A stretch of DNA of 56,423 nucleotides, taken from positions 1-56,423 of the forward strand of contig VERF01000010.1 in assembly GCA_018882895.1 (NCBI GenBank), given 5' to 3'. The stretch is from Candidatus Kapaibacterium sp. GTDB lineage: Bacteria; Bacteroidota; Ignavibacteria; Kapaibacteriales; Kapaibacteriaceae. This document shows, piece by piece, positions 1 to 56,423 of this stretch (positions within the stretch are counted from its first letter, which is position 1; each line of letters begins with the position of its first letter). Under the pieces are notes generated by a model. It was given only the letters and a program-made list of their open reading frames with translations. It had not been told where the DNA came from and made no database searches. The position numbers and the translations under genes were made by a program.

Positions 1-1155
1 GCCTACAACACGGCGTTGCACTTCACCTCCAATGGAGGTCAGACATGGCAGCAGCAAACCGGTATCAATGGGTTTATTATGGGGATTGAGGTGGACCCTG
101 TCACTCCGAGCAAGTACTATGTGGCAATCGGAGGTTTCTCGCAAGGTCAGAAGGTTATGATGGTGAGCAATGGTGTTGTATCTAATATCACCGGCACCGG
201 GCTTCCCAATGTTCCGTGCAACAGCTTGGTATATCAGCGAGGAACTCCGAATCGACTATTCGCCGGAACTGATATTGGAGTCTTTTTCATGGATGAGGGA
301 ACCGGGTTCTGGCAGTCATATGGTTCGGGTCTGCCTCCGGTGATCGTAACGGGTTTGCGACTTATCCCGTCGTCGAGTCTGCTACGAATATCAACCTATG
401 GTCGTGGTATATGGGAGATCGATGTCACGCAGTGTGCTGCAGCGACACCGACGATTACTGCAGCAACGCCGACCACTATCTGTGCTGGCGATTCGGTGGT
501 GCTAGAGGCAGCAACCGGATATTCATCATATAGGTGGTCGAATGGAGACACAACACGTAGGGTTGTTCTGAACAATGCCTCGCAAAGTGGAGCATACTTG
601 GTGGGAGTAGAGGATTCGAAGGGATGCCGCGCTACCTCAACGTCTATCAACGTTGTCATCAATAGGTTGCCATCAAAGCCCCTTGTCACGAAGATCGCGC
701 GCGATACGCTGCGCTCGTCAGCTTTTGGCGGAGTGACCAAATATCAATGGTTCAGGGATGGTGTTGAGATCTCCGGAGCGACCTCTCGGAACCTGCCAGT
801 CACGCAGAGCGGGTCGTACCTTGTTAAAGTGTTTGATGCAACATGCTCGAACACATCGGATGAGTTCGCATACACGTATGAACCGGCCGTGAGTGTCATC
901 GATGACAACGGCAGTGGCTGGCAGATCGCTGTCACGCCGAACCCGGTTGACGAGTCATTTGTGATCTCGCTACCTGGTACTTCAATGGCAACGCTGGTCG
1001 TCATGGACATCACCGGCAGGACGGTGTTTGAGACAACCTCGCAGTCTATGTCTACGTCGATGAGGGTCAATGCAGGCACTTGGACGCCAGGAATGTACCT
1101 TGCTCAGATCCGCGCCGGAAGCGGCGTGTGGACCGTGAGTTTTGTGAAGAACTGA
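1..1155 (+). CDS. T9SS-secreted BNR/Ig-like repeat protein, 3' part
   Basis: The reading frame is open from base 1, so the 5' end lies outside the window. The visible 384 residues start with a sialidase/sortilin-type BNR repeat (SNGGQTW) and further beta-propeller-like sequence. Two Ig/PKD-like modules follow (roughly residues 145-220 and 225-300), each with a paired cysteine and a YRWS or YQWF core. The last ~80 residues form a type A T9SS C-terminal sorting domain: VTPNPVDESF, then VMDITGRTVF, then PGMYLAQI and a basic end. In known T9SS bacteria this domain directs export across the outer membrane and is cut off or attached to A-LPS. I infer a large surface or secreted protein. The ligand or substrate is unknown. 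It is followed convergently by the acyltransferase gene. Confidence 0.85.
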   Translation, partial: AYNTALHFTSNGGQTWQQQTGINGFIMGIEVDPVTPSKYYVAIGGFSQGQKVMMVSNGVVSNITGTGLPNVPCNSLVYQRGTPNRLFAGTDIGVFFMDEGTGFWQSYGSGLPPVIVTGLRLIPSSSLLRISTYGRGIWEIDVTQCAAATPTITAATPTTICAGDSVVLEAATGYSSYRWSNGDTTRRVVLNNASQSGAYLVGVEDSKGCRATSTSINVVINRLPSKPLVTKIARDTLRSSAFGGVTKYQWFRDGVEISGATSRNLPVTQSGSYLVKVFDATCSNTSDEFAYTYEPAVSVIDDNGSGWQIAVTPNPVDESFVISLPGTSMATLVVMDITGRTVFETTSQSMSTSMRVNAGTWTPGMYLAQIRAGSGVWTVSFVKN

Positions 1156-1178
1156 CGGTTCTCGGCAGGTCGCCCGGT

Positions 1179-1928
1179 TCAGGGACGTCTACCCAGGAGT
1201 GCATCGAAGCGCTTTTCCATTGACAGAGGCCCCCTTACAAAGGTCTCATAATTTTGGTGTCTCTCGCTCATTGCGTCGGCCCTGAGTACATCTCGGACCG
1301 AGGTCAATGCCTCGGAACAAATCGCTTGAACGTGGCGAATCGGTGTGGAAGGTTCTATGACAAGGGGCTTGTCAAAGCGCACCCAGCACGCTGGCAGCTG
1401 TTCTCGGAGCATCTCGTAGCGCATTGCTACCGGAAGAATACGGCAAGGGCCGACCAGATGTGTCAGTATGCCTACGCCAGGTTCGCAATCGATTCGATCG
1501 ACATCTTGGTGGATTAGCTCTCCCTGTGGATACATCCACAGGATTCGGTTCGTGCCTCGAATGCGGCCTGCCGCGTATCGCAGAGACTTCATGGCACTCT
1601 TGGCATCCTCCCGGATGACGCTGAAGATGCCGAGGTGTGAAAAGAATCGATAGCGAGAAAGCTGGCGATACTCCATCATGCCATCCATGTCGAGACTGTG
1701 TCGGGAGAAGGCGATCGTGATTGCCGCAGCTGCATCCCACCAGGATCCGTGAGTGGAAACGATGATGGTCGGAATTCCGTCAACAGCGGCCTTGACCGAC
1801 TCCAGGTGCTCTTCGCCGGCGATGTAGCCTCGAGAAAAGTGACGTCGCAGGGTGAAGTTGAAGTAGCGACCCCAGAAGAATCGATCGAGGGCGCGCGGCT
1901 GTGCTTCGATGAACGGTTTGTCAGTCAT
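1179..1928 (-). CDS. PlsC-like lysophospholipid acyltransferase
   Basis: This 249-aa protein has the HX4D acyltransferase motif (HGSWWD, about residue 60), which is the catalytic His/Asp pair of the LPLAT/PlsC superfamily. A YPQGE block near residue 134 matches motif III, which binds the acyl-acceptor phosphate. The family moves acyl chains from acyl-CoA or acyl-ACP onto a lysophospholipid or similar acceptor at the inner membrane. The sequence does not show which acceptor is used. No clear transmembrane helix is visible, so it is probably a peripheral membrane protein. The gene stands alone: it converges with the T9SS gene and diverges from mnmA across only 36 bp. Ornithine-lipid or other glycerolipid acyltransferases are alternatives. 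Confidence 0.8.
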   Translation of the reverse strand: MTDKPFIEAQPRALDRFFWGRYFNFTLRRHFSRGYIAGEEHLESVKAAVDGIPTIIVSTHGSWWDAAAAITIAFSRHSLDMDGMMEYRQLSRYRFFSHLGIFSVIREDAKSAMKSLRYAAGRIRGTNRILWMYPQGELIHQDVDRIDCEPGVGILTHLVGPCRILPVAMRYEMLREQLPACWVRFDKPLVIEPSTPIRHVQAICSEALTSVRDVLRADAMSERHQNYETFVRGPLSMEKRFDALLGRRP

Positions 1929-1964
1929 GGTAAGTTTGCATCTCCAGTCAGAAAGCTACCACCA

Positions 1965-3077
1965 GTGGAACGGAATTCAAATCGTGTTATCGTCGGCATG
2001 TCCGGCGGAGTCGACTCCAGCGTTGCTGCCGGACTGCTCGTAGAGCAGGGTTTTGACGTGGTCGGCATCACCATCAAGACCTACAAGTATGAGGACGTCG
2101 GTGGCAATGTCGGAAATGATTCAACGTGCTGCTCGCTCGACGGCATCAACGATGCACGGCGTGTAGCTTTGGGTCTGGGCATTCCACATTACACCGTTGA
2201 CTTTACCGAGACGTTCAAAGATCAGGTCATCAACTACTTTGTTCAGGACTACCTCGAGGGTAACACACCGAATCCATGCGTTAAGTGTAACCGCCAGATC
2301 AAATGGGCCGAGATGCTTCGGAAGGCCGACTCGCTCGGTGCCGAATTCATCTCCACGGGTCACTATGCCAGTATAATGCACGACGAGACGAGCGGCCGCC
2401 GCTGGATACGCCGCAGTCTCGATCCTCAGAAGGATCAATCGTACATGCTCTGGAGTGTCCGACAAGAGCACCTGGCCCGTACCATCTTTCCGCTCTCAGG
2501 ATTTACCAAGCCACAATCGCGCGCCGAGAAGGAGCGCCTTGGGCTTGATCTGGCACCGAAACCGGAGTCGTACGAGATATGTTTCATTGCCGACAACGAC
2601 TACAGGCGGTTTCTGCGTGATGCCGTTAGCGACATCGACCAGAGGATCGGCACCGGGGACATCGTGCTCGACGGCCGTGTGATCGGTACGCATGAGGGTT
2701 ATCCGTTCTACACCGTTGGTCAGCGAAAGGGGCTGGGCATAGCCCACTCCGAGCCGCTGTATGTTTTGAACGTCCTTCCCGACACTAACACGGTCGTGGT
2801 TGGAACCGAGGAAAAGCTCGAGGCCACAACACTCACGGCACATAGCGTCAATCTGCAGAAGTACTCCGATCTGAATGATGAGCGGCGATTTCTCGTAAAG
2901 GTGCGCTACAAGGATGCCGGTGCCATGGCCACGTGCCGTACCGACGCGGCGGGGCGTCTGCACGTAACATTCGACGAGCCCCGACGTGCCATTGCACCTG
3001 GCCAGTCGGTAGTGATGTACGAGGGTGACGATGTAGTCGGTGGTGGGATCATTCAGCGTCCATCGGACGAGGTCTGA
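1965..3077 (+). CDS. mnmA: tRNA-specific 2-thiouridylase MnmA
   Basis: MnmA adds sulfur at C2 of wobble uridine 34 in tRNA-Lys, tRNA-Glu and tRNA-Gln, using ATP and a sulfur relay. The PP-loop SGGVDSS is at residues 13-19. The two catalytic cysteines are visible in NPCVKCN (about residue 107) and EICFIAD (about 205). The C-terminal beta-barrel ends with APGQSVVMYE and GGGII. I place the start at GTG 1965, which gives 370 aa, the usual family length. An ATG at 1998 would begin inside the PP-loop, and the open frame further upstream only overlaps the divergent acyltransferase. It is followed 3 bp later by tgt, another wobble-position modification enzyme, so the two are probably cotranscribed. 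Confidence 0.95.
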   Translation: MERNSNRVIVGMSGGVDSSVAAGLLVEQGFDVVGITIKTYKYEDVGGNVGNDSTCCSLDGINDARRVALGLGIPHYTVDFTETFKDQVINYFVQDYLEGNTPNPCVKCNRQIKWAEMLRKADSLGAEFISTGHYASIMHDETSGRRWIRRSLDPQKDQSYMLWSVRQEHLARTIFPLSGFTKPQSRAEKERLGLDLAPKPESYEICFIADNDYRRFLRDAVSDIDQRIGTGDIVLDGRVIGTHEGYPFYTVGQRKGLGIAHSEPLYVLNVLPDTNTVVVGTEEKLEATTLTAHSVNLQKYSDLNDERRFLVKVRYKDAGAMATCRTDAAGRLHVTFDEPRRAIAPGQSVVMYEGDDVVGGGIIQRPSDEV

Positions 3078-47866: not shown

Positions 47867-48688
47867 ATGGATATGCATGCCGTTGGCTACGCCTTTGCGC
47901 TCACGCTTCTGGCGGGGCTAGCAACGGGCGTTGGCTCGGCCATGGCTTTTTTCACGAAGAGAACCAGCACCAAGACACTGTCTCTGTCGCTCGGATTCTC
48001 GGCAGGCGTGATGATCTATGTCTCATTTGTTGAGATCCTCAACAAGTCTGTCGTCGCCCTGACAGAGTCCTTCGGGTCTGTGAAGGGACACTGGTATGCA
48101 GTTGCCTCATTTTTCGGCGGCATCGCGCTTATAGCGATCATCGACAAACTCGTGCCCACGTACGAAAACCCGCACGAGAACATGAGCGTTGAGTACATGG
48201 ATGATCCGGAACGCAGCGCCGAGTACAAGAAGCGCAACATGCTCATGCGCGTAGGGATCATGACTGCGTTGGCCATAGGCATCCACAATTTCCCCGAGGG
48301 GTTGGCCACGTTTGTCAGCGCACTGCATGATCCGAGTCTTGGTCTTGCCATTGCCATTGCCATCGCGATCCACAACATCCCAGAGGGTATTGCCGTGAGT
48401 ATCCCGGTGTACTACGCAACCAATGATCGTCGGCAAGCCTTCTTCTGGTCGTTTCTGTCAGGTTTGGCCGAGCCAGTCGGAGCTGTCATTGGCTACCTTC
48501 TTCTGCTTCCTATCATGAGCCCGCTCGTCATGGGGATTCTGTTTGGTATGGTGGCCGGAATCATGGTCTTCATTTCAATCGATGAGCTCCTGCCTGCAGC
48601 ACGCGACTACGGAGAACACCATCTTAGCGTGTACGGAATGATCGCCGGTATGGCTGTTATGGCCTCATCATTGTTGCTGTTGCAGTAG
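47867..48688 (+). CDS. zupT: ZIP-family metal transporter (ZupT type)
   Basis: This inner-membrane protein has about eight transmembrane helices in 273 aa. The metal-binding signatures are HNFPEGLATF (helix IV) and HNIPEGIAVS (helix V), the ZIP-defining His-Asn-x-Pro-Glu-Gly pair. It should import zinc, iron or manganese. The stretch AIAIAIAIHNIPEG is coded by near-identical GCCATT repeats. The start is ATG 47867, one base after the nuoF stop; an in-frame start upstream would overlap nuoF. It may share the nuoF promoter. Confidence 0.93.
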   Translation: MDMHAVGYAFALTLLAGLATGVGSAMAFFTKRTSTKTLSLSLGFSAGVMIYVSFVEILNKSVVALTESFGSVKGHWYAVASFFGGIALIAIIDKLVPTYENPHENMSVEYMDDPERSAEYKKRNMLMRVGIMTALAIGIHNFPEGLATFVSALHDPSLGLAIAIAIAIHNIPEGIAVSIPVYYATNDRRQAFFWSFLSGLAEPVGAVIGYLLLLPIMSPLVMGILFGMVAGIMVFISIDELLPAARDYGEHHLSVYGMIAGMAVMASSLLLLQ

Positions 48689-48701
48689 TTCAGGTACAAT
48701 C

Positions 48702-49307
48702 ATGCGCATCGGAATCATTGGTGGGTCGTTCAATCCGATTCACATCGCACACCTGATCATCGCAGATCGCTTTGTTGATCAACTCGATCTGGATCGTTGT
48801 TACTTCGTTCCAACGGCCAAGTCGCCCTTTAAGATCGATGATCCGATGCTGGCCTCGGCGACCGAGCGCCTCGAGATGGTACGTCTTGCTACCGAGCAGC
48901 ACCCGATGTTCCACGTCAGTGATGTTGAGGTCCAACGCGGCGGCGTTTCATACACGATCGACACCGTGGCCTCAATGCAGGCCGAGCACCCTGGTTCCGA
49001 ACTCTTCATCCTCATCGGAAGCGATCAGGCCGTGGAGTTCGTCAGATGGCATCGTTGGCAGGAACTGTTGCGGGCTGCTCAGTTATGCGTCGTGCGGCGC
49101 CCCTTCCTGTTGACCCCGGAAATGGAAGAGCGGCTCACCGAGAATTTAACCGTGGAAGGCAGATCGCCGATCTGGATCAATGCGCCACTGTTGGAGATTT
49201 CCTCGACCGACATTCGACTTCGCGTGCGACAGCACAAGAGCATCAACTACCTTACCACGAAAGCCGTGCGCGACTTTATCGGCCTACACGGCCTGTATCG
49301 CAGATGA
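48702..49307 (+). CDS. nadD: Nicotinate-nucleotide adenylyltransferase
   Basis: NadD converts NaMN and ATP to deamido-NAD, late in NAD synthesis. The 201-aa protein has GGSFNPIHIAHL (nucleotidyltransferase GxFxPxHxGH-like motif), VPTAKSPFK, and the C-terminal SSTDIRLRV with ISSTxIR-type residues. The length is normal. The stop overlaps the next start (ATGA), coupling it to the sugar permease gene. With nnr in the same window, two NAD(P) maintenance genes are present but not linked. Confidence 0.95.
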   Translation: MRIGIIGGSFNPIHIAHLIIADRFVDQLDLDRCYFVPTAKSPFKIDDPMLASATERLEMVRLATEQHPMFHVSDVEVQRGGVSYTIDTVASMQAEHPGSELFILIGSDQAVEFVRWHRWQELLRAAQLCVVRRPFLLTPEMEERLTENLTVEGRSPIWINAPLLEISSTDIRLRVRQHKSINYLTTKAVRDFIGLHGLYRR

Positions 49308-50134
49308 TGCGCAATCGGCTCACCATTGGGCGCATGCTCACGATAGGACTTCTGGTGGTGGTGTCCTTTGGAATGATCGCCCCCATGGCCTGGATGATCC
49401 TTGTCTCGCTGCGGTCCTCGCCGGAACAGTACACGTCACTTGGCCAGATGATCGCAGCGCCGACCGTTGCGATCAACTATGCAGACGCGTGGACGTCGGA
49501 CAACTTTCTCGGCTACTTTATCAATTCGCTGTTGGTGGCATCGGTCGTTACGGCCGGCAACGTCGTCTTCTGTCTATGGGCGGGATATGCCTTTGCACGC
49601 CGACGTTTTGCGGGTAAGGGGCTTTTGTTTGCCTCAATCCTTGGCGTTCTTGCCGTCCCACAGCAGGTGATCATGATCCCGCTCTACCGGCTTGTTGCGA
49701 GCTTCGACTGGATAAACACATACGCAGCTCTGATCGTACCGTGGCTAGTGACACCATTCGGCATCTTTCTTGTGCGCCAGTACATCGAATCGATGCCTGC
49801 AGAACTGGAAGATGCCGCACGCATTGATGGAGCCGGCGAGTGGTACATTCTCACCAAGATCGTAGCGCCCCTTTGCAGACCTGTTCTGACAGTTCTGGCC
49901 ATCTACACCTTTCTGTCGAACTGGAACTCTTTCCTGTTTCCATTCTTGTTCACCAACGACGAAGCACATAGAACTCTTCCGGTCGGTCTTGCATTCTACC
50001 TTGGCAAACAATCGATCGACTGGGGGCATCTGATGGCAGGTGCAAGCATCGCCGCAGCGCCGATCATCGTTCTATTCGTGATGTTTCAACGACGCATCAT
50101 TGAAGGACTGACAGCCGGTGCCTTGAAGGAATGA
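49304..50134 (+). CDS. Sugar ABC transporter permease, MalG/UgpE type, orphan
   Basis: The 276-aa protein has six predicted transmembrane helices and the EAA loop that contacts the ATPase (EDAARIDGAGEWYILTKIVAP, core DAARIDGAG, about residues 168-176). This is the second permease of a carbohydrate uptake-1 transporter. The normal partners (MalF-type permease, binding protein and MalK-type ATPase) are not adjacent. A family-1 sugar-binding lipoprotein lies 26 kb away and could be part of the same system. The ATG overlaps the nadD stop by four bases. Confidence 0.9.
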   Translation: MMRNRLTIGRMLTIGLLVVVSFGMIAPMAWMILVSLRSSPEQYTSLGQMIAAPTVAINYADAWTSDNFLGYFINSLLVASVVTAGNVVFCLWAGYAFARRRFAGKGLLFASILGVLAVPQQVIMIPLYRLVASFDWINTYAALIVPWLVTPFGIFLVRQYIESMPAELEDAARIDGAGEWYILTKIVAPLCRPVLTVLAIYTFLSNWNSFLFPFLFTNDEAHRTLPVGLAFYLGKQSIDWGHLMAGASIAAAPIIVLFVMFQRRIIEGLTAGALKE

Positions 50135-50167
50135 TGAGAGTGCATCTTTATTCACATTTTTGCGCCC

Positions 50168-50728
50168 ATGAACAACACACAACCAACAACCCTCGATCTG
50201 CGACGCATTGCCGATTCGCAGACTGTTCTTCTGTCTCTTTCGGGCATTGTCGCAATCATGCTTTGCACTCAGGTGCGCGTGCCGCTTCCGTTCACACCCG
50301 TGCCTATAACCGGACAGACCTTCGCCGTTATCGCCTGGCCTCTTCTGTTTGGATATAGAGCCGGCCTAGGTGCCGTAGGCGGATACCTTGCGCTTGGCGC
50401 ACTCGGTGCGCCGGTCTTTGCAGGTTTTGAGTCGCTCACAGCGCTTTGGGGTCCAACCTCGGGCTACCTTGTCGGGTTCGCACTCGCGGCAGCTCTTACT
50501 GGCCGTCTGCGGGATGCAGGCGCAACCAGTAGCGCGGCTGGTCTCTTTCTGACGATCATCTCGGCTCAGGCACTCATTCTGGTGTGTGGCGCTGCTGTTC
50601 TTTCGTTGTTTGTCGGAACCGATAACAGCTTGATGATGGGTGTGGCCCCGTTTTTAGCGGGCGATGCGATCAAGACCGCTCTTCTGTTCACCATGACACG
50701 GCTAAGCAGATGGAACGCGACGAACTGA
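50168..50728 (+). CDS. bioY: Biotin transporter substrate-specific subunit BioY
   Basis: BioY is the S component of the biotin ECF transporter. The 186-aa protein has about six helices and the family core: TQVRVPLPFTPVPITGQTF, GGYLALGALGAPVFAG and GPTSGYLVGFALAA. The energising units BioM and BioN (or EcfA/T) are not next to it. Solitary BioY can work alone in some bacteria, or use a shared ECF module. The window also has biotin-dependent accD but no biotin synthesis genes. The next gene starts inside its 3' end (19-bp overlap). Confidence 0.94.
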   Translation: MNNTQPTTLDLRRIADSQTVLLSLSGIVAIMLCTQVRVPLPFTPVPITGQTFAVIAWPLLFGYRAGLGAVGGYLALGALGAPVFAGFESLTALWGPTSGYLVGFALAAALTGRLRDAGATSSAAGLFLTIISAQALILVCGAAVLSLFVGTDNSLMMGVAPFLAGDAIKTALLFTMTRLSRWNATN

Positions 50729-51060
50729 AACTTCTTGCTCAGATGGTCGCTCGCGAGCTCGAACAGACGGCACGCGTCGAGGTTGCCCCACGGTGGCAAC
50801 ACGGAACCATGATTTTCAAACCCTCTGACGATCGCCTGAAGCAGCATGAGATGTCGATCGAACGCTTCATGCACAAGATCGTGATGATGCGCGATAACCT
50901 GCGCGTTCTCGAGCAGCAGATCAATTCCAATAAAAGTCTTGAAGTGGGTGAAAAGATCAAGCTGCAGAGCTACATCACTCGCATCTACGGTTCCATGACG
51001 TCGTTCAACCTTTTCTTCGCCGATGAAGAGGACGCGTTCAAGGGATCGGGAGGTGGGTGA
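50710..51060 (+). CDS. Small uncharacterised protein with helical content
   Basis: I do not recognise this 116-aa protein. It starts MERDELKLLAQMVARELEQTAR and is mostly helical. The middle (EMSIERFMHKIVMMRDNLRVLEQQINSN) looks like a coiled coil. There is no signal peptide or membrane segment, so it is cytosolic. The tail is glycine-rich. ATG 50710 overlaps bioY by 19 bp, which argues for a cotranscribed, genuine gene. It is the last plus-strand gene before the tRNA pair, and the terminator at 51103-51138 serves the opposite strand. Confidence 0.7.
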   Translation: MERDELKLLAQMVARELEQTARVEVAPRWQHGTMIFKPSDDRLKQHEMSIERFMHKIVMMRDNLRVLEQQINSNKSLEVGEKIKLQSYITRIYGSMTSFNLFFADEEDAFKGSGGG

Positions 51061-51102
51061 CTGATTCAGGCCGTCGTTCCCGAGAATGCGGGTTTGCATA
51101 GC

Positions 51103-51138
51103 AAAAAAAAACGTCCACCCTTTAAGAGGGTGGACGTT
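51103..51138 (-). terminator. Rho-independent terminator of the tRNA operon
   Basis: An 11-bp stem (AACGTCCACCC with GGGTGGACGTT) and 7-base loop are followed on the minus strand by eight more T residues. It lies 17 bp past the 3' end of tRNA-Asp. It may also act weakly for the plus-strand gene ending at 51060. Confidence 0.92.
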
Positions 51139-51155
51139 GTTCCCGGAAGATGGAG

Positions 51156-51230
51156 CGGGACCGACGGGGCTCGAACCCGCGACCTCCGCCTTGACAGGGC
51201 GGCGCTCTAACCAAGCTGAGCTACGATCCC
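51156..51230 (-). tRNA. tRNA-Asp(GUC)
   Basis: A 75-nt cloverleaf on the minus strand: acceptor GGGATCG/CGGTCCC with discriminator G, D-arm GCTC/GAGC, anticodon stem CCGCC/GGCGG with loop CTGTCAA (anticodon GTC), and T-arm with TTCGAGC. CCA is not encoded. It is second in a tandem pair after tRNA-Ala. The U33-G34-U35 sequence is the recognition site of Tgt, which is encoded in this window. Confidence 0.97.
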
Positions 51231-51246
51231 ATCTACCGACGTTGTG

Positions 51247-51319
51247 TGGACCCAAGCGGGATCGAACCGCTGACCTCTTCAATGCCATTGAAGCGCTCTC
51301 CCAGCTGAGCTATGGGCCC
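51247..51319 (-). tRNA. tRNA-Ala(GGC)
   Basis: A 73-nt cloverleaf on the minus strand: acceptor GGGCCCA/TGGGTCC with discriminator A, D-arm GCTC/GAGC, anticodon stem CTTCA/TGAAG with loop ATGGCAT (anticodon GGC), and T-arm AGCGG/CCGCT. CCA is not encoded. It is the first of the pair, 16 bp before tRNA-Asp, both transcribed from the promoter at 51339-51368. Confidence 0.97.
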
Positions 51320-51338
51320 GTTTCTTAAAAACGGAGTG

Positions 51339-51368
51339 CAAATATAAATCCTCTTCGAGGATTAACAA
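51339..51368 (-). promoter_or_regulatory. Bacteroidetes-type promoter of the tRNA-Ala/tRNA-Asp operon
   Basis: On the minus strand, TTG (51366-51368), a 19-bp spacer and TATATTTG (51339-51346) give a full match to TTG-N17-23-TAnnTTTG. It lies 19 bp before the tRNA-Ala 5' end. This is the best promoter in the window and supports the lineage call. Confidence 0.8.
51347..51363 (-). terminator. Hairpin after ABC exporter gene, inside tRNA promoter spacer
   Basis: AATCCTC-ttc-GAGGATT makes a 7-bp stem with a 3-base loop, followed on the minus strand by TATATTTG. It is 13 bp past the ABC exporter stop. The hairpin occupies 17 of the 19 spacer bases between the -33 and -7 elements. The T-tract is weak, so termination may be partial. 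Confidence 0.55.
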
Positions 51369-51376
51369 GGGGCTAA

Positions 51377-53098
51377 TCAACGAATGAATTGAAGATCGCA
51401 CCAATGACTGTAGAGACCGCCGATACGCAGCAATTCATCATGCGTGCCAGACTCGATGACTGACCCTGCTGAAAAGACGAAGATCCTATCGCATGTACGC
51501 ACGGTGCTCAACCGGTGAGCAATGATCACCGTCGTGCGGTCTGCCATGAGTCGCTCGAGAGCATCTTGAATCAGATGCTCGCTTTCGGCATCCAGTGAGC
51601 TGGTCGCCTCGTCAAGGATGAGGATCGACGGATTCTTGAGAAGTGCGCGAGCAATTGCAACACGCTGTCGTTGTCCGCCGCTGAGCTTTAGACCACGTTC
51701 GCCAACTAGAGTGCCAAATCCTTCTGGGAAGCGCTCAATGAAATCGAGTGCATTTGCATCAGCAGCTGCCTTTCGCACGTCTTCAAAAGATGCTTCCGGA
51801 CGCCCATATCGTATGTTCTCCTCGATGGTTCCACCAAAGAGCACAATGTCCTGCGGCACGACGCCAACGCTGCGTCTGACCTGAGCGCGAGAATATGACG
51901 CTGCATCAAATCCGTTGTAACGGATCGTACCTAGCGTGGGATCATACAGCCTCTGCAGCAGGGCAGCCGTGGTTGACTTTCCGGAGCCGCTCTCACCAAC
52001 GAAGGCAACGCGTTCACCGGCCTTAATGTTAATGCTGATGCTGTTCACCACCAGCATGTCCTGACGATCCGGATATCGGAAAGACACGCTGTCGAGTTCA
52101 ATCGACGACAACCTCACGGCCGGCTGATCACAGCCAACTTCCTCGGTCGGCTCAGCCATGATTTCTCTTATCCGAACAGCCGAACCTAGTGATTTCTGGA
52201 TCTGGCCATAGAGTTCCGCGAATGATCCCAGAGCGCCTCCGACGAACATCGCGTACATAAGGAACGACAACAGCTCACCCAGCCTCAGATCGCCAGACTC
52301 GACAAGGCGGGCTCCGTATAGGATAACGGCGGCAATGCCACCGAAGACGGTAAAGATGATGAACGTCACAAATCCTGCACGAAGGCGAGCCCCCTTCACG
52401 GCAAGGCCAACATACTCCCCGAGAGAATCAGAGTAGCGCCGTATCTCATGGGGCTCCTGCACATACGACTTCACGGCCGAGATGCTCTGCAGCGACTCCT
52501 CGATGATCGTGGAAGTACGCGCCAATGCGTCCTGCGTGCGCGTACTGAGCTTACGCAAACGTCGCCCAATCAAAACACCGGCACCCACGATAATCGGCAT
52601 TCCAATGATGATCGGCATCGTGAGCCGAACGCTCGTTGCAAGGATCAAAACGATGGAGCCGACGAGGAAGATCGATTGCCGAACAAGTTGAAGCAGAGAA
52701 AACGAAAAAGTCTCCTGGATCTGCGTCATGTCACTCGACAGACGCGATGACAATTCACCCACGCGGTGTCCGGACATTCGAGAAAGGGGCAGCCGGACGA
52801 TATGCTCGTAGAGATCCGATCGTATCGAGGCGATCACTCGCTCGGTCGTGCGCGAGAGTGTCACCGAGACAACGTAACCGACGATGGCCTGTGCCGTAAG
52901 CAGTCCAAGGAACAAACCACCGGTATTCATCAGTGATGTTGCCTCACTGTTGGCCAGGATCTGATCGATGATGTTGCCCGTCAGCATGGGAAAGAGCAGG
53001 CTAACGCCACTGCTCGGAACCATGAAGGTGAGCGCAAGGATCATCGACCAGCGATAGGGCCGATAGTAGCGGAGCAGAAAACCAAAGGTCGATCGCAT
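51377..53098 (-). CDS. ABC-type multidrug/lipid exporter (MsbA-like), fused TMD-NBD
   Basis: The 573-aa half-exporter has six transmembrane helices (about residues 1-305) and a C-terminal nucleotide-binding domain. The NBD has Walker A GESGSGKSTTAALL, the Q-loop GVVPQDIVLFGG, the signature LSGGQRQRVAIARAL, Walker B ILILDEATSSLD and the H-loop IAHRLSTVR. All are intact. The family exports lipids, drugs or peptides as a homodimer; MsbA-like lipid flipping is a possibility. ATG 53098 is the conserved start. GTG 53125, which overlaps the SDR stop as GTGA, is an alternative. The gene is downstream of an SDR gene. Confidence 0.9.
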   Translation of the reverse strand: MRSTFGFLLRYYRPYRWSMILALTFMVPSSGVSLLFPMLTGNIIDQILANSEATSLMNTGGLFLGLLTAQAIVGYVVSVTLSRTTERVIASIRSDLYEHIVRLPLSRMSGHRVGELSSRLSSDMTQIQETFSFSLLQLVRQSIFLVGSIVLILATSVRLTMPIIIGMPIIVGAGVLIGRRLRKLSTRTQDALARTSTIIEESLQSISAVKSYVQEPHEIRRYSDSLGEYVGLAVKGARLRAGFVTFIIFTVFGGIAAVILYGARLVESGDLRLGELLSFLMYAMFVGGALGSFAELYGQIQKSLGSAVRIREIMAEPTEEVGCDQPAVRLSSIELDSVSFRYPDRQDMLVVNSISINIKAGERVAFVGESGSGKSTTAALLQRLYDPTLGTIRYNGFDAASYSRAQVRRSVGVVPQDIVLFGGTIEENIRYGRPEASFEDVRKAAADANALDFIERFPEGFGTLVGERGLKLSGGQRQRVAIARALLKNPSILILDEATSSLDAESEHLIQDALERLMADRTTVIIAHRLSTVRTCDRIFVFSAGSVIESGTHDELLRIGGLYSHWCDLQFIR

Positions 53099-53121
53099 CT
53101 GCCCCTTCTCTTGTTGCTCTT

Positions 53122-53757
53122 TCACGTGCTGCCCCGGGTAGTCTTGAACATTGGGATCACAGCCGCACTGATTGCGCACGTAGGCTGAATGAGATCATAG
53201 ATCACCGAGGCGATCTCTGACGGATCGACCCACGTGCGCGACTGCTCCGGTGTGCCCCATTCGAGATTGGCAGGCGTACGGATCACATCAGGAATGATGC
53301 AGTTGGCACGGATGCCATGCTCACGGCCTTCTTCAGCCGCAGAAAGCGTCAACGACACAACGGCAGCCTTTGCCGCAGCGTAGGCGGCACGATTGGCTTC
53401 GGGTTGCAGGACGGCCTTGGCTCCTACGGTGACGATGCTACCGCCGCCATTGGAAATGAGCTGACGAATGGCAGCGCGCAACACATTGAATGTTGTGATG
53501 AAATTCAAGTCCATCATTGCTGCGACGTCATCCGGCGACGTCTCGGCAATGGCCTGGCCAGCACGAATGCCACCAACGAGATGCACGACGGCATGTATCG
53601 ATGAAGCGTGATCATGAACGAAGCGCTCACAATCAGCAGGATTCGACAGATCAACGCGGTCGCGGTCTGCAGCGATCACATCGATTGATCGCTCGGTCAG
53701 ATACGCTGCGACAACCTGTCCAAGTTGGCCACCGGCACCGGTCAGTAATACGGTCAT
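53122..53757 (-). CDS. SDR-family oxidoreductase, second copy
   Basis: The 211-aa short-chain dehydrogenase has the Rossmann GAGGQLGQVVA (near residue 8), a loop with VHLVGGIRAG in place of the usual NAG, and the catalytic YAAAKAAVVS (Tyr/Lys near 150). SIVTVGAK supplies the preceding position where a Ser is expected, and here the aligned residue is Gly or Ala rather than a clear catalytic Ser, so activity is less certain. The start is ATG 53757 because the longer frame overlaps the protease gene. It is short for an SDR but seems complete. The next gene, an ABC exporter, starts within or just after its stop. Confidence 0.83.
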   Translation of the reverse strand: MTVLLTGAGGQLGQVVAAYLTERSIDVIAADRDRVDLSNPADCERFVHDHASSIHAVVHLVGGIRAGQAIAETSPDDVAAMMDLNFITTFNVLRAAIRQLISNGGGSIVTVGAKAVLQPEANRAAYAAAKAAVVSLTLSAAEEGREHGIRANCIIPDVIRTPANLEWGTPEQSRTWVDPSEIASVIYDLIQPTCAISAAVIPMFKTTRGST

Positions 53758-53762
53758 TGTGC

Positions 53763-55754
53763 TTAGAGTACCAGCAATGGTAGGTGAAGGACCGAACCGT
53801 TCATGTGACATTCCAGGAACCATGTACCGGTCGGAAGGGACATTGCGGCGATGACGGACGTCGACCCCGCGTCGTGTCGTGCAATACTGCATGGCACAGA
53901 CATACCGGTGACAGCATGAACGAGTCGAACCGATAAGGGGGCTTCACGTAATCCATGCACGACAAGCTCACGTACGTCGGCCGACAGGGGAACTCCTGCT
54001 ACCGTAGCATGTGATGATGCAATCAGATCATCGTTCACGGACACGATCGTTGATGGTAGGCGCATACCACAGGGCACTGAGACGAAGTTGCGTTGGACTC
54101 GCATCGTTTCTGCTCCTACGGGATAAGCAAACGTTCTTCCCGTGACCTTACTCGAGACGACGATCCTGACGTGAGACACATCAGCTGTGAATAGCTCGTC
54201 CCGCAGAGTAAACGCATACCAGTCGCCCGACACATGCACGCCGTTGATGGCGATCTCGGCCGCATCTGTGCGCGGACGTTGATAGAGAACAGGCTCAACC
54301 GTATCCGGAGAGAATATAGGTGCAAGGATGACCATCTTTCCGCTTACAACCACGACTGCGGGCTCGGGAACTGAGGGGCCCAGAAGCCGCGCAGCCCGAG
54401 CAACATCAATCGCGCCGTGTCCGAGAACCGAATCGGTATTCACGCCATAGCTCGATGCCTGCACCATGGCCTGCCGCAGAAAGCTAGGATGTGCACTCGG
54501 ATACAGCTGACGCAGCAAGGCAACCTGTGCGGCTGCATACGGCGTGGCAAGGGAGGTGCCGGAGGCGCGGCCCACCGCTCCATTGAGCTGCTGCACCGGT
54601 ACACGCTGCCCGGGAGCGGCGAACTCGGGCTTTTGACGACCTTTTGGCGTCGGACCAAAGGACGAGTTGCTCCATGCCGTGACGCCGTCAAGCGAAATCG
54701 CCCCAATAGCCAGCGCACTGTCGGCATCAGCTGGCGTGATGATCGATTGCGAGGACGGTCCGCTGTTACCGGCAGCCGTCAGACAGATAACTCCTCGCTT
54801 GGAGGCCAGGTTGATGGCACGAGCCGGAAAGGTTGTCGACCCATCAAGCAGATCATACGGTGTCGACGACTCCGTTGAGTCGAACGTACGGTAACCGAGT
54901 GATGAACTCGAGATGTCAACTCCACTGCGTTCAAGCCACCAGAGCGCCTCGACGTAGAGGTCTTCCTCAATGCGTCGCTCATAGCGCATGTCCTCTGACT
55001 TGGCAAGCAGGTAGGTGCCGAATGGAGCCACACCCATGACCGAGTCGCGATGCCATGCCGCAGCTACTGACATTATGATGCTGCCGTGCTCATCCTGGCC
55101 TGCTACGTCATTCGATTGATTCGCAGTAGTCGGACGTCGATAGATGAAGTCATACTCAGATTCGACGTTGACGTGAGACAGACTACTCATTGTCTTCCAA
55201 CGGAATCCGTTGTCGATAAGGCCGATGCGAGCCCCCTGACCAAACACTCCCGCATCATGCAGCTCGTCGACTTTGCCCACTCTAAGCATGTCGTACTGGT
55301 AATTCACCGGAACCGGCGAACAGTCTTCAGGCTTGCTGAAACGATACATGATCGAGTTGGCAGCAGCAAGGCCCTTGACGCAATCAAGTGCCTTGACGCG
55401 ATCGACTTCGTCCGGTGTCAGTCCAACCACCGCATAGTTGAACCAGGGATTCGACGTCAGCAAGCTGTCGCTTATGCTTAGGATCTGCCCGAGATAGCCT
55501 CTGTCAATGGGTCGGTCCATCGCATCAAGCAGGGGGTTCATTCCGGCCAGGGCTCGTCGCTCCAACGCGTGCGGATGATACTGCGCCAGGGTGGAGTCAT
55601 ACAGGGGGCTGCCGGGGACAAAGGAATCAGCACCTTTATCGACAAAGAAAACCCGATATGGCGAACGCTGCGCCGATCCTCCAACGCTGGCCAGCATCAG
55701 CACGAGGGCCACCGTCAGGAGGGAAAGCGTTTCGTAGGTTTGCAGTCGTTTCAT
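53763..55754 (-). CDS. Secreted subtilisin-like serine protease (S8)
   Basis: The 663-aa protein has a signal peptide (TYETLSLLTVALVLMLASVGGSAQ). The S8 catalytic domain (about 170-470) has the Asp in ARIGLIDNGF, the His in QDEHGSIIMSVAAA, the Asn-type CLTAAGNSGPSSQS oxyanion residue and the Ser in ASGTSLATPYAAAQ. The triad is complete. A beta-rich region follows. The C-terminus (SLPTGTWFLECHMNGSVL) looks like a shortened sorting-type domain, without the usual PNP motif, so secretion by T9SS is uncertain. The start is ATG 55754. The divergent YgfZ-like gene starts only 9 bp away. Confidence 0.9.
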   Translation of the reverse strand: MKRLQTYETLSLLTVALVLMLASVGGSAQRSPYRVFFVDKGADSFVPGSPLYDSTLAQYHPHALERRALAGMNPLLDAMDRPIDRGYLGQILSISDSLLTSNPWFNYAVVGLTPDEVDRVKALDCVKGLAAANSIMYRFSKPEDCSPVPVNYQYDMLRVGKVDELHDAGVFGQGARIGLIDNGFRWKTMSSLSHVNVESEYDFIYRRPTTANQSNDVAGQDEHGSIIMSVAAAWHRDSVMGVAPFGTYLLAKSEDMRYERRIEEDLYVEALWWLERSGVDISSSSLGYRTFDSTESSTPYDLLDGSTTFPARAINLASKRGVICLTAAGNSGPSSQSIITPADADSALAIGAISLDGVTAWSNSSFGPTPKGRQKPEFAAPGQRVPVQQLNGAVGRASGTSLATPYAAAQVALLRQLYPSAHPSFLRQAMVQASSYGVNTDSVLGHGAIDVARAARLLGPSVPEPAVVVVSGKMVILAPIFSPDTVEPVLYQRPRTDAAEIAINGVHVSGDWYAFTLRDELFTADVSHVRIVVSSKVTGRTFAYPVGAETMRVQRNFVSVPCGMRLPSTIVSVNDDLIASSHATVAGVPLSADVRELVVHGLREAPLSVRLVHAVTGMSVPCSIARHDAGSTSVIAAMSLPTGTWFLECHMNGSVLHLPLLVL

Positions 55755-55763
55755 AGCAAAATC

Positions 55764-56423
55764 ATGACAATGACCCCGGACAAACACGATAGAATCAGAC
55801 GCGTTACCCTTTGCCGCCAACAGGCCGCATGGGTCATGCGGCCACGTCGCAGTGTCATACGCATGACAGGAGCTGATCGTATCGATCTACTCCACCGCCT
55901 CACCACCAATGACATGCGCTCGGTTGCACCAGGAAGCGGTCGGCAGACTGTCCTACTGACGGAAAAGGCGCGGATCATTGACGTTGTGACAGTTCTTCAG
56001 GACACTGATGATGCGCTACTTATTGGCTCCGCGGACACGTCATCGGACATCCTGTCGTGGATACGAAAGTACGTCATCATGGATGATGTACGCCTCAAGG
56101 ATCTTACAGATCAGATGTCCATGATAGAGATCATGGGACCACGTGCCGCCGATGTGACGGGTGATATCGTTGGCATAGACGTCTCCGATCTGGGAATGTC
56201 GCAATGGCGCAAAGTACCGTCCGCGGAAGGGATGCTCGTGGTTCGCACTGCATCGCCGAGCGAACTGTCGTACCTGATCATTGCTCCAAATGACAATGTC
56301 GAGGCAATCGTAGAGGAACTGCAAAAGCATAGCGCTGAGTTGCCCGAATTGGATGAAGAGCTTGATGAATACGTTCGGGTACTTGCCGGAATGGGGCTGC
56401 ATGGAAAGGAATGGACTCTTTCA
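55764..56423 (+). CDS. YgfZ/GcvT-domain protein, 5' part
   Basis: The frame is open from ATG 55764 to the window end (220 codons, no stop). The N-terminus has MTGADRIDLLHRLTTNDMRSV and LLTEKARIIDVVTVL, which match the folate-binding GcvT/YgfZ fold (RLTTND is conserved). EIMGPRAADVTGDIV is also typical. The YgfZ signature K-G-C-Y-x-G-Q-E would lie past the window. YgfZ assists iron-sulfur cluster repair, while GcvT is an aminomethyltransferase. The weak match to the GcvT metal and folate residues favours YgfZ. It diverges from the subtilase gene across a 9-bp gap. Confidence 0.8.
   Translation, partial: MTMTPDKHDRIRRVTLCRQQAAWVMRPRRSVIRMTGADRIDLLHRLTTNDMRSVAPGSGRQTVLLTEKARIIDVVTVLQDTDDALLIGSADTSSDILSWIRKYVIMDDVRLKDLTDQMSMIEIMGPRAADVTGDIVGIDVSDLGMSQWRKVPSAEGMLVVRTASPSELSYLIIAPNDNVEAIVEELQKHSAELPELDEELDEYVRVLAGMGLHGKEWTLS

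Follow-up and report, generated by a model that had tools for sequence, protein, structure and literature searches.

The window analysed here, a stretch of 56,423 nucleotides, carries on its minus strand an ABC exporter gene followed by a tRNA operon, and the spacer of the tRNA promoter between them can fold into a short, perfect hairpin. An earlier note on this DNA had read this hairpin as a nested element that could stop read-through from the exporter and at the same time set the geometry of the promoter, which raises the question of whether the same bases serve both purposes. Our analysis indicated that the sequence and the promoter are real, and it did not support the nested terminator/promoter-geometry switch. 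We consider it quite probable that the site is an ordinary sigma-A-type tRNA promoter and that its 7-bp hairpin arose as a dyad peculiar to this species, in a spacer under little constraint.

The promoter of the tRNA operon is conserved among relatives

The genome assembly comprises 2.57 Mb in 131 contigs. The exporter gene (51377–53080, minus strand; ABC_membrane and ABC_tran according to Pfam) is the co-directional gene upstream of tRNA-Ala; its mechanical ORF extends back to 53179, and its stop codon occupies positions 51379–51377, with 13 nt between the stop and the spacer stem. Further along the minus strand, direct reading of the sequence places the TTG of the −33 element at 51366–51368, the N19 spacer at 51365–51347, and the −7 element TATATTTG at 51339–51346, both promoter elements being also found at the tRNA-Ala loci of relatives. 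tRNA detection located tRNA-Ala (GGC) at 51246–51319 and tRNA-Asp (GTC) at 51155–51230 of the same strand. Counting the window, 12 of 48 related loci have the exporter as the co-directional upstream neighbour of tRNA-Ala; 49 loci were examined, of which one (L123) gave no tRNA-Ala row, its tRNA match lying at a contig end. When plasmids were searched for similar DNA, the best 5 of 507 records all proved to be ABC ATPase matches, none spanning more than 27% of the query.

The proposed tRNA promoter, TTG-N19-TATATTTG at 51368–51339 (minus strand), proved exact and was strongly backed by the comparison of relatives. In family f1, 103 tRNA promoters share the arrangement TTG-N18/19/20-TAnnTTYG, with parsed spacers of N19 in 54 cases, N20 in 44, and N18 in 5. 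The tRNA-anchored pattern, which detects only tRNAs with TAGCTCAG, had matches in 52 of 60 relatives, against 2 matches altogether for the reversed-pattern control, which gave zero in nearly every genome. Searched genome-wide without the anchor, the exact TTG-N19-TAnnTTTG pattern gave 12 matches versus 9 for the reversed control, which is not significant. Among the tRNA-Ala loci, a TAnnTTYG box with a readable spacer was present within 60 nt of the tRNA in 42 of 48, and a TTG preceded the −7 box by 18–21 nt in 36 of these 42. All spacer and leader counts given below for tRNA-Ala are based on these 42 loci, L018, L026, L031, L112, L113, and L118 having been left out for want of a usable box and spacer; at L018, the −7 box is visible by eye and the contig ends inside the spacer.

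The consensus of the Bacteroidota primary sigma factor (sigma-ABfr/sigma-A) is given in a passage of PMC7366714 as TTTG (−33) and TAnnTTTG (−7), and an excerpt of PMC9723704 places the −7 box of Flavobacterium psychrophilum at −12 to −5. The promoters studied here resemble Bacteroidota sigma-A promoters in their identical −7 box, the TTG at −33, and a spacer of 18–20 nt; they differ from the published consensus in that the variant TAnnTTCG is also frequent, and their start sites are predicted ones. The 19-nt leader between the −7 box and tRNA-Ala is compatible with a predicted start a few nucleotides past the box, so that RNA synthesis would begin at or near 51334. By the comparison of relatives, positions 51368–51339 are well supported as an ordinary Bacteroidota-type housekeeping promoter of the tRNA-Ala-GGC/tRNA-Asp-GTC operon, presumably used by sigma-A. 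As a separate observation, many tRNA leaders of the family carry TCC or comparable pyrimidines roughly 4 nt past the −7 box, and several leaders of the GCGGGAA tRNA group have GTTCTTTG in common.

The spacer hairpin is not conserved among relatives

The hairpin itself is as the earlier note described it: a stem of 7 perfect pairs with a loop of 3 (AATCCTC and GAGGATT around GAA; 51363–51347, minus strand) takes up 17 of the 19 spacer bases, shortly past the exporter stop. Based on sequence and comparison, it is particular to this species. The probability of a perfect stem of at least 7 bp (loop 3–8) is approximately 0.0003–0.0005 in a random 19-mer and 0.001 in shuffles of the spacer's own letters. 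At odds of about 1 in 1000–3000, such a stem is unusual for a site fixed beforehand and counts against a chance origin, but this site was chosen post hoc. Throughout the window, 44 stem registrations of this kind were counted versus 25.8 ± 5.9 in shuffles, some single hairpins being counted repeatedly at different loop lengths, and terminator-like sites sought at looser settings in 48000–56423 showed no excess (6 versus 6.4 in shuffles).

Among the 42 tRNA-Ala promoters a 7-bp spacer stem was seen once, as it was among the 103 promoters of the family, and both times the case was the window's own. Shorter stems of at least 5 bp (19-nt spacer) occurred at 5 of the 42 tRNA-Ala loci, where mononucleotide shuffles gave a mean of 1.3 (p 0.005), and stems of at least 5 bp in 4 of the 103 family promoters. 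The nearest relatives (G005, G008, and G009) encode an exporter 86–90% identical to that of the window, with its stop 52–60 nt before the tRNA, and they retain the N19 spacing; their spacers contain perfect stems of only 3–4 bp and no 7-bp stem. Likewise, the 7-bp stem is lacking at all 11 remaining loci that have the exporter upstream (different weak stems were seen in 2 of them), and sequence comparison found no hairpin arms common to the relatives. Because the nearest relatives retain the exporter, the spacing, and the promoter but not the stem, the hairpin does not set the promoter geometry, a role that is ruled out by the occurrence of N19 spacing without hairpins. The hairpin therefore looks like a quirk of one species rather than a shared switch, since relatives keep the start site and not the hairpin.

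Mechanistically, RNA polymerase would recognise the TTG and TAnnTTTG elements while the spacer is double-stranded DNA, so that spacer length would matter and hairpin potential would not.

Termination between the exporter and the tRNA operon

Like Rho-independent (intrinsic) terminators, the spacer hairpin lies past a stop codon and has a stem followed by T-rich sequence. It departs from them in a tail with A at positions 2 and 4 and in its lack of conservation, and it seems to do so in the low stability of the stem, which has 7 bp with 3 G-C pairs and folds at −6.3 kcal/mol alone (−7.8 to −9.6 kcal/mol with context). The z-score of the fold was −2.7 to −2.8 in short context and −1.25 in 61 nt. 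Directly past the stem, the sequence is TATATTTG and not an uninterrupted U-run. By a terminator scoring formula, the hairpin scored −42.5 and ranked 28th when the 88 stem-strands of the window were compared, with repeats counted. The canonical terminator is the operon's own, approximately 210 nt further on (51110–51138, minus strand), where a 12-bp stem of −20.4 kcal/mol is followed by a T-run; it ranked first in the window by the same score (+40.7 to +54.3, depending on the basal pairs counted). Rescoring of 10 downstream terminators by this formula gave 9 positive values and 1 negative value under the trimming used.

This downstream terminator is conserved. A terminator-like structure follows tRNA-Asp at 34 of 48 loci, including the window (−12.7 to −28.8 kcal/mol), and the same scan applied to the 110 nt before tRNA-Ala found one at 8 of 48 (−4.3 to −12.4 kcal/mol). 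At the 12 loci with an exporter upstream, the exporter stop is situated 42–129 nt before the tRNA, and no consistent stem was found between the two. The dual role as terminator and geometry element was accordingly not borne out: the stem is missing from all examined relatives that retain the promoter and the exporter neighbour, and its tail is poor. The −7 box, written as RNA (UAnnUUUG), resembles a U-tract, so that a stem in such a spacer would mimic a terminator. A chance stem in the spacer of a Bacteroidota promoter with TAnnTTTG can thus imitate a nested terminator, which calls for caution when such sites are read.

On the reading of an ordinary promoter, the hairpin may cause slight pausing or termination at most when it is transcribed from the exporter, and transcripts reading through would probably continue into the tRNA operon, stop at the 51110–51138 terminator, and be processed at the tRNA ends. 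Tolerated read-through that ends at the downstream terminator is the simplest inference. Along the region from the exporter stop to the tRNA (51377–51320, minus strand; 12 of 48 loci), the 3' end of the exporter mRNA may come from tRNA processing or from the tRNA-operon terminator, as no consistent terminator lies between exporter and tRNA.

An alternative that we regard as unlikely is that the hairpin works as a weak intrinsic terminator, trimming read-through from the exporter with the T-rich −7 box serving as tail, and that relatives substitute other weak stems at this place. A stem and a T-rich tail are indeed present, different stems take the same position in G008 (imperfect, −8.0 kcal/mol, and running up to the −7 box as here) and G005 (−4.5 kcal/mol), and a mild excess of structure is seen across the genus. 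This explanation is weakened by the poor tail and low stability, and by two loci of the genus (L008 and L013) that have spacer dyads with no exporter upstream, the longest upstream ORF being on the opposite strand. Structure linked to the exporter was likewise not significant, the 11 other exporter-upstream loci showing no clear excess (mean z −0.56 ± 0.52).

The genus-level excess was quantified as spacer self-complementarity, which summed to 38 versus 27.9 ± 2.4 in dinucleotide shuffles (n = 10, reached by 0/1000) and, after removal of the window, to 31 versus 24.2 ± 2.2 (n = 9, 7/1000). Over all 42 loci the sum was 134 versus 116.9 ± 4.7 (0/1000 shuffles), or 127 versus 113.2 ± 4.5 with the window removed (n = 41, 2/1000), and in sliding windows the mean best stem was highest at the spacer. 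Fold energy over the 34 nt that precede the −7 box gave a mean z of −1.3 ± 0.5 in the genus (n = 10) and no excess over all loci (−0.09 ± 0.20, n = 42). A general dyad excess across tRNA promoter spacers was rejected as a candidate, being not significant outside tRNA-Ala: the other 83 family tRNA promoters summed to 222 versus 213.8 ± 6.0 (55/500 shuffles). Since the species are related and few, we regard the excess in the genus as a hint and not a demonstration; being mild but present, it leaves room for a weak role of the spacer dyad. Recurrent, sequence-independent selection for self-complementary tRNA-Ala spacers in the genus, for example through a response to supercoiling or through nascent read-through RNA, would account for an excess that persists without the window, but it appears very improbable given the small sample (9–10 related species) and the lack of signal both in the other 83 family promoters and in the mean fold energy of all 42 loci.

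MerR-type regulators recognise dyads placed at the middle of a 19-bp spacer, and the dyad here is, by direct reading, nearly centred in its N19; a protein operator of this kind is nevertheless scarcely credible, as its arms are unconserved among relatives and N19 is the normal spacing of this promoter class.

The tRNA-Ala leader and tRNA-Lys

A second hairpin, identified by folding and covariation, lies past the promoter at 51318–51334 (minus strand; CCGTTT-loop-AAAC+GG) and takes in nucleotides 1–2 of mature tRNA-Ala. In the predicted transcript from about 51334, CCGUUU-loop-AAAC would be followed by the GGG of the tRNA, so that the stem CCGUUU/AAACGG uses the first two tRNA nucleotides. Counting contiguous Watson–Crick stems only, stems spanning the mature 5' end summed to 151 over all 42 loci versus 103.9 ± 6.1 in leader shuffles (0/1000); the excess held outside the genus (32 loci, 97 versus 79.9 ± 5.5, 3/1000 shuffles) and was absent outside the family (22 loci, 56 versus 53.8 ± 4.4, 337/1000 shuffles). 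The 20 distinct leaders from the family show pairing in 87.5% of cells, and their covariation score of 0.351 exceeded both the shuffles (0.195 ± 0.029, 0/500), which ignore relatedness, and every slid version. Pairs changed on both sides numbered 3 versus 1.6, a value reached by 52 of 500 shuffles.

Leader structure was strongest at tRNA-Ala (mean z −2.71, n = 20), with the next largest tRNA groups at +0.39 (n = 11), −0.22 (n = 7), and +0.33 (n = 6); two leaders of a GGGCAGT tRNA had a mean z of −1.88, and G012, G014, G019, and G021 gave no such leader signal. In the 12 full precursors that were folded, the minimum-energy structure usually retains the acceptor stem and, directly abutting it, a short stem in the leader, the exceptions being L011 (no leader stem), L005 (leader stem not flush), and L023 and L030, which fold otherwise. 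Conserved and covarying within the family, the leader hairpin is on these alignments and predicted folds a better-supported RNA element than the spacer hairpin.

The RNase P protein touches leader positions −8 to −3, according to a section of PMC11143913, so a leader stem could slow or time cleavage. One tentative proposal, which we hold possible though rather doubtful, is that the leader hairpin gates the folding or maturation of this one tRNA, and that the spacers of the genus have in addition repeatedly gained unrelated stems which weakly attenuate read-through. Since the 3' arm of the hairpin runs into tRNA nucleotides 1–2, it would hide the RNase P site until displaced by the acceptor stem. 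The leader hairpin is the more promising target of the two, offering a claim on tRNA maturation that can be put to the test, in a lineage represented here by metagenome assemblies alone.

As an observation on another tRNA, at L033 in the genome of the window (C18:20927–20974) and in relatives, tRNA-Lys starts exactly 3 nt past TAnnTTTG. No leader shorter than 3 nt was found among the 103 family promoters. The 3-nt pattern had matches in 20 of 99 genomes of the order, and 20 of the 21 matches resemble tRNA-Lys by their acceptor strand, the anticodon (CTT) having been read in the window's genome only. This distance from the −7 box suggests that the tRNA-Lys transcript begins at the mature 5' end or directly beside it, despite the presence of RNase P RNA in the genome.
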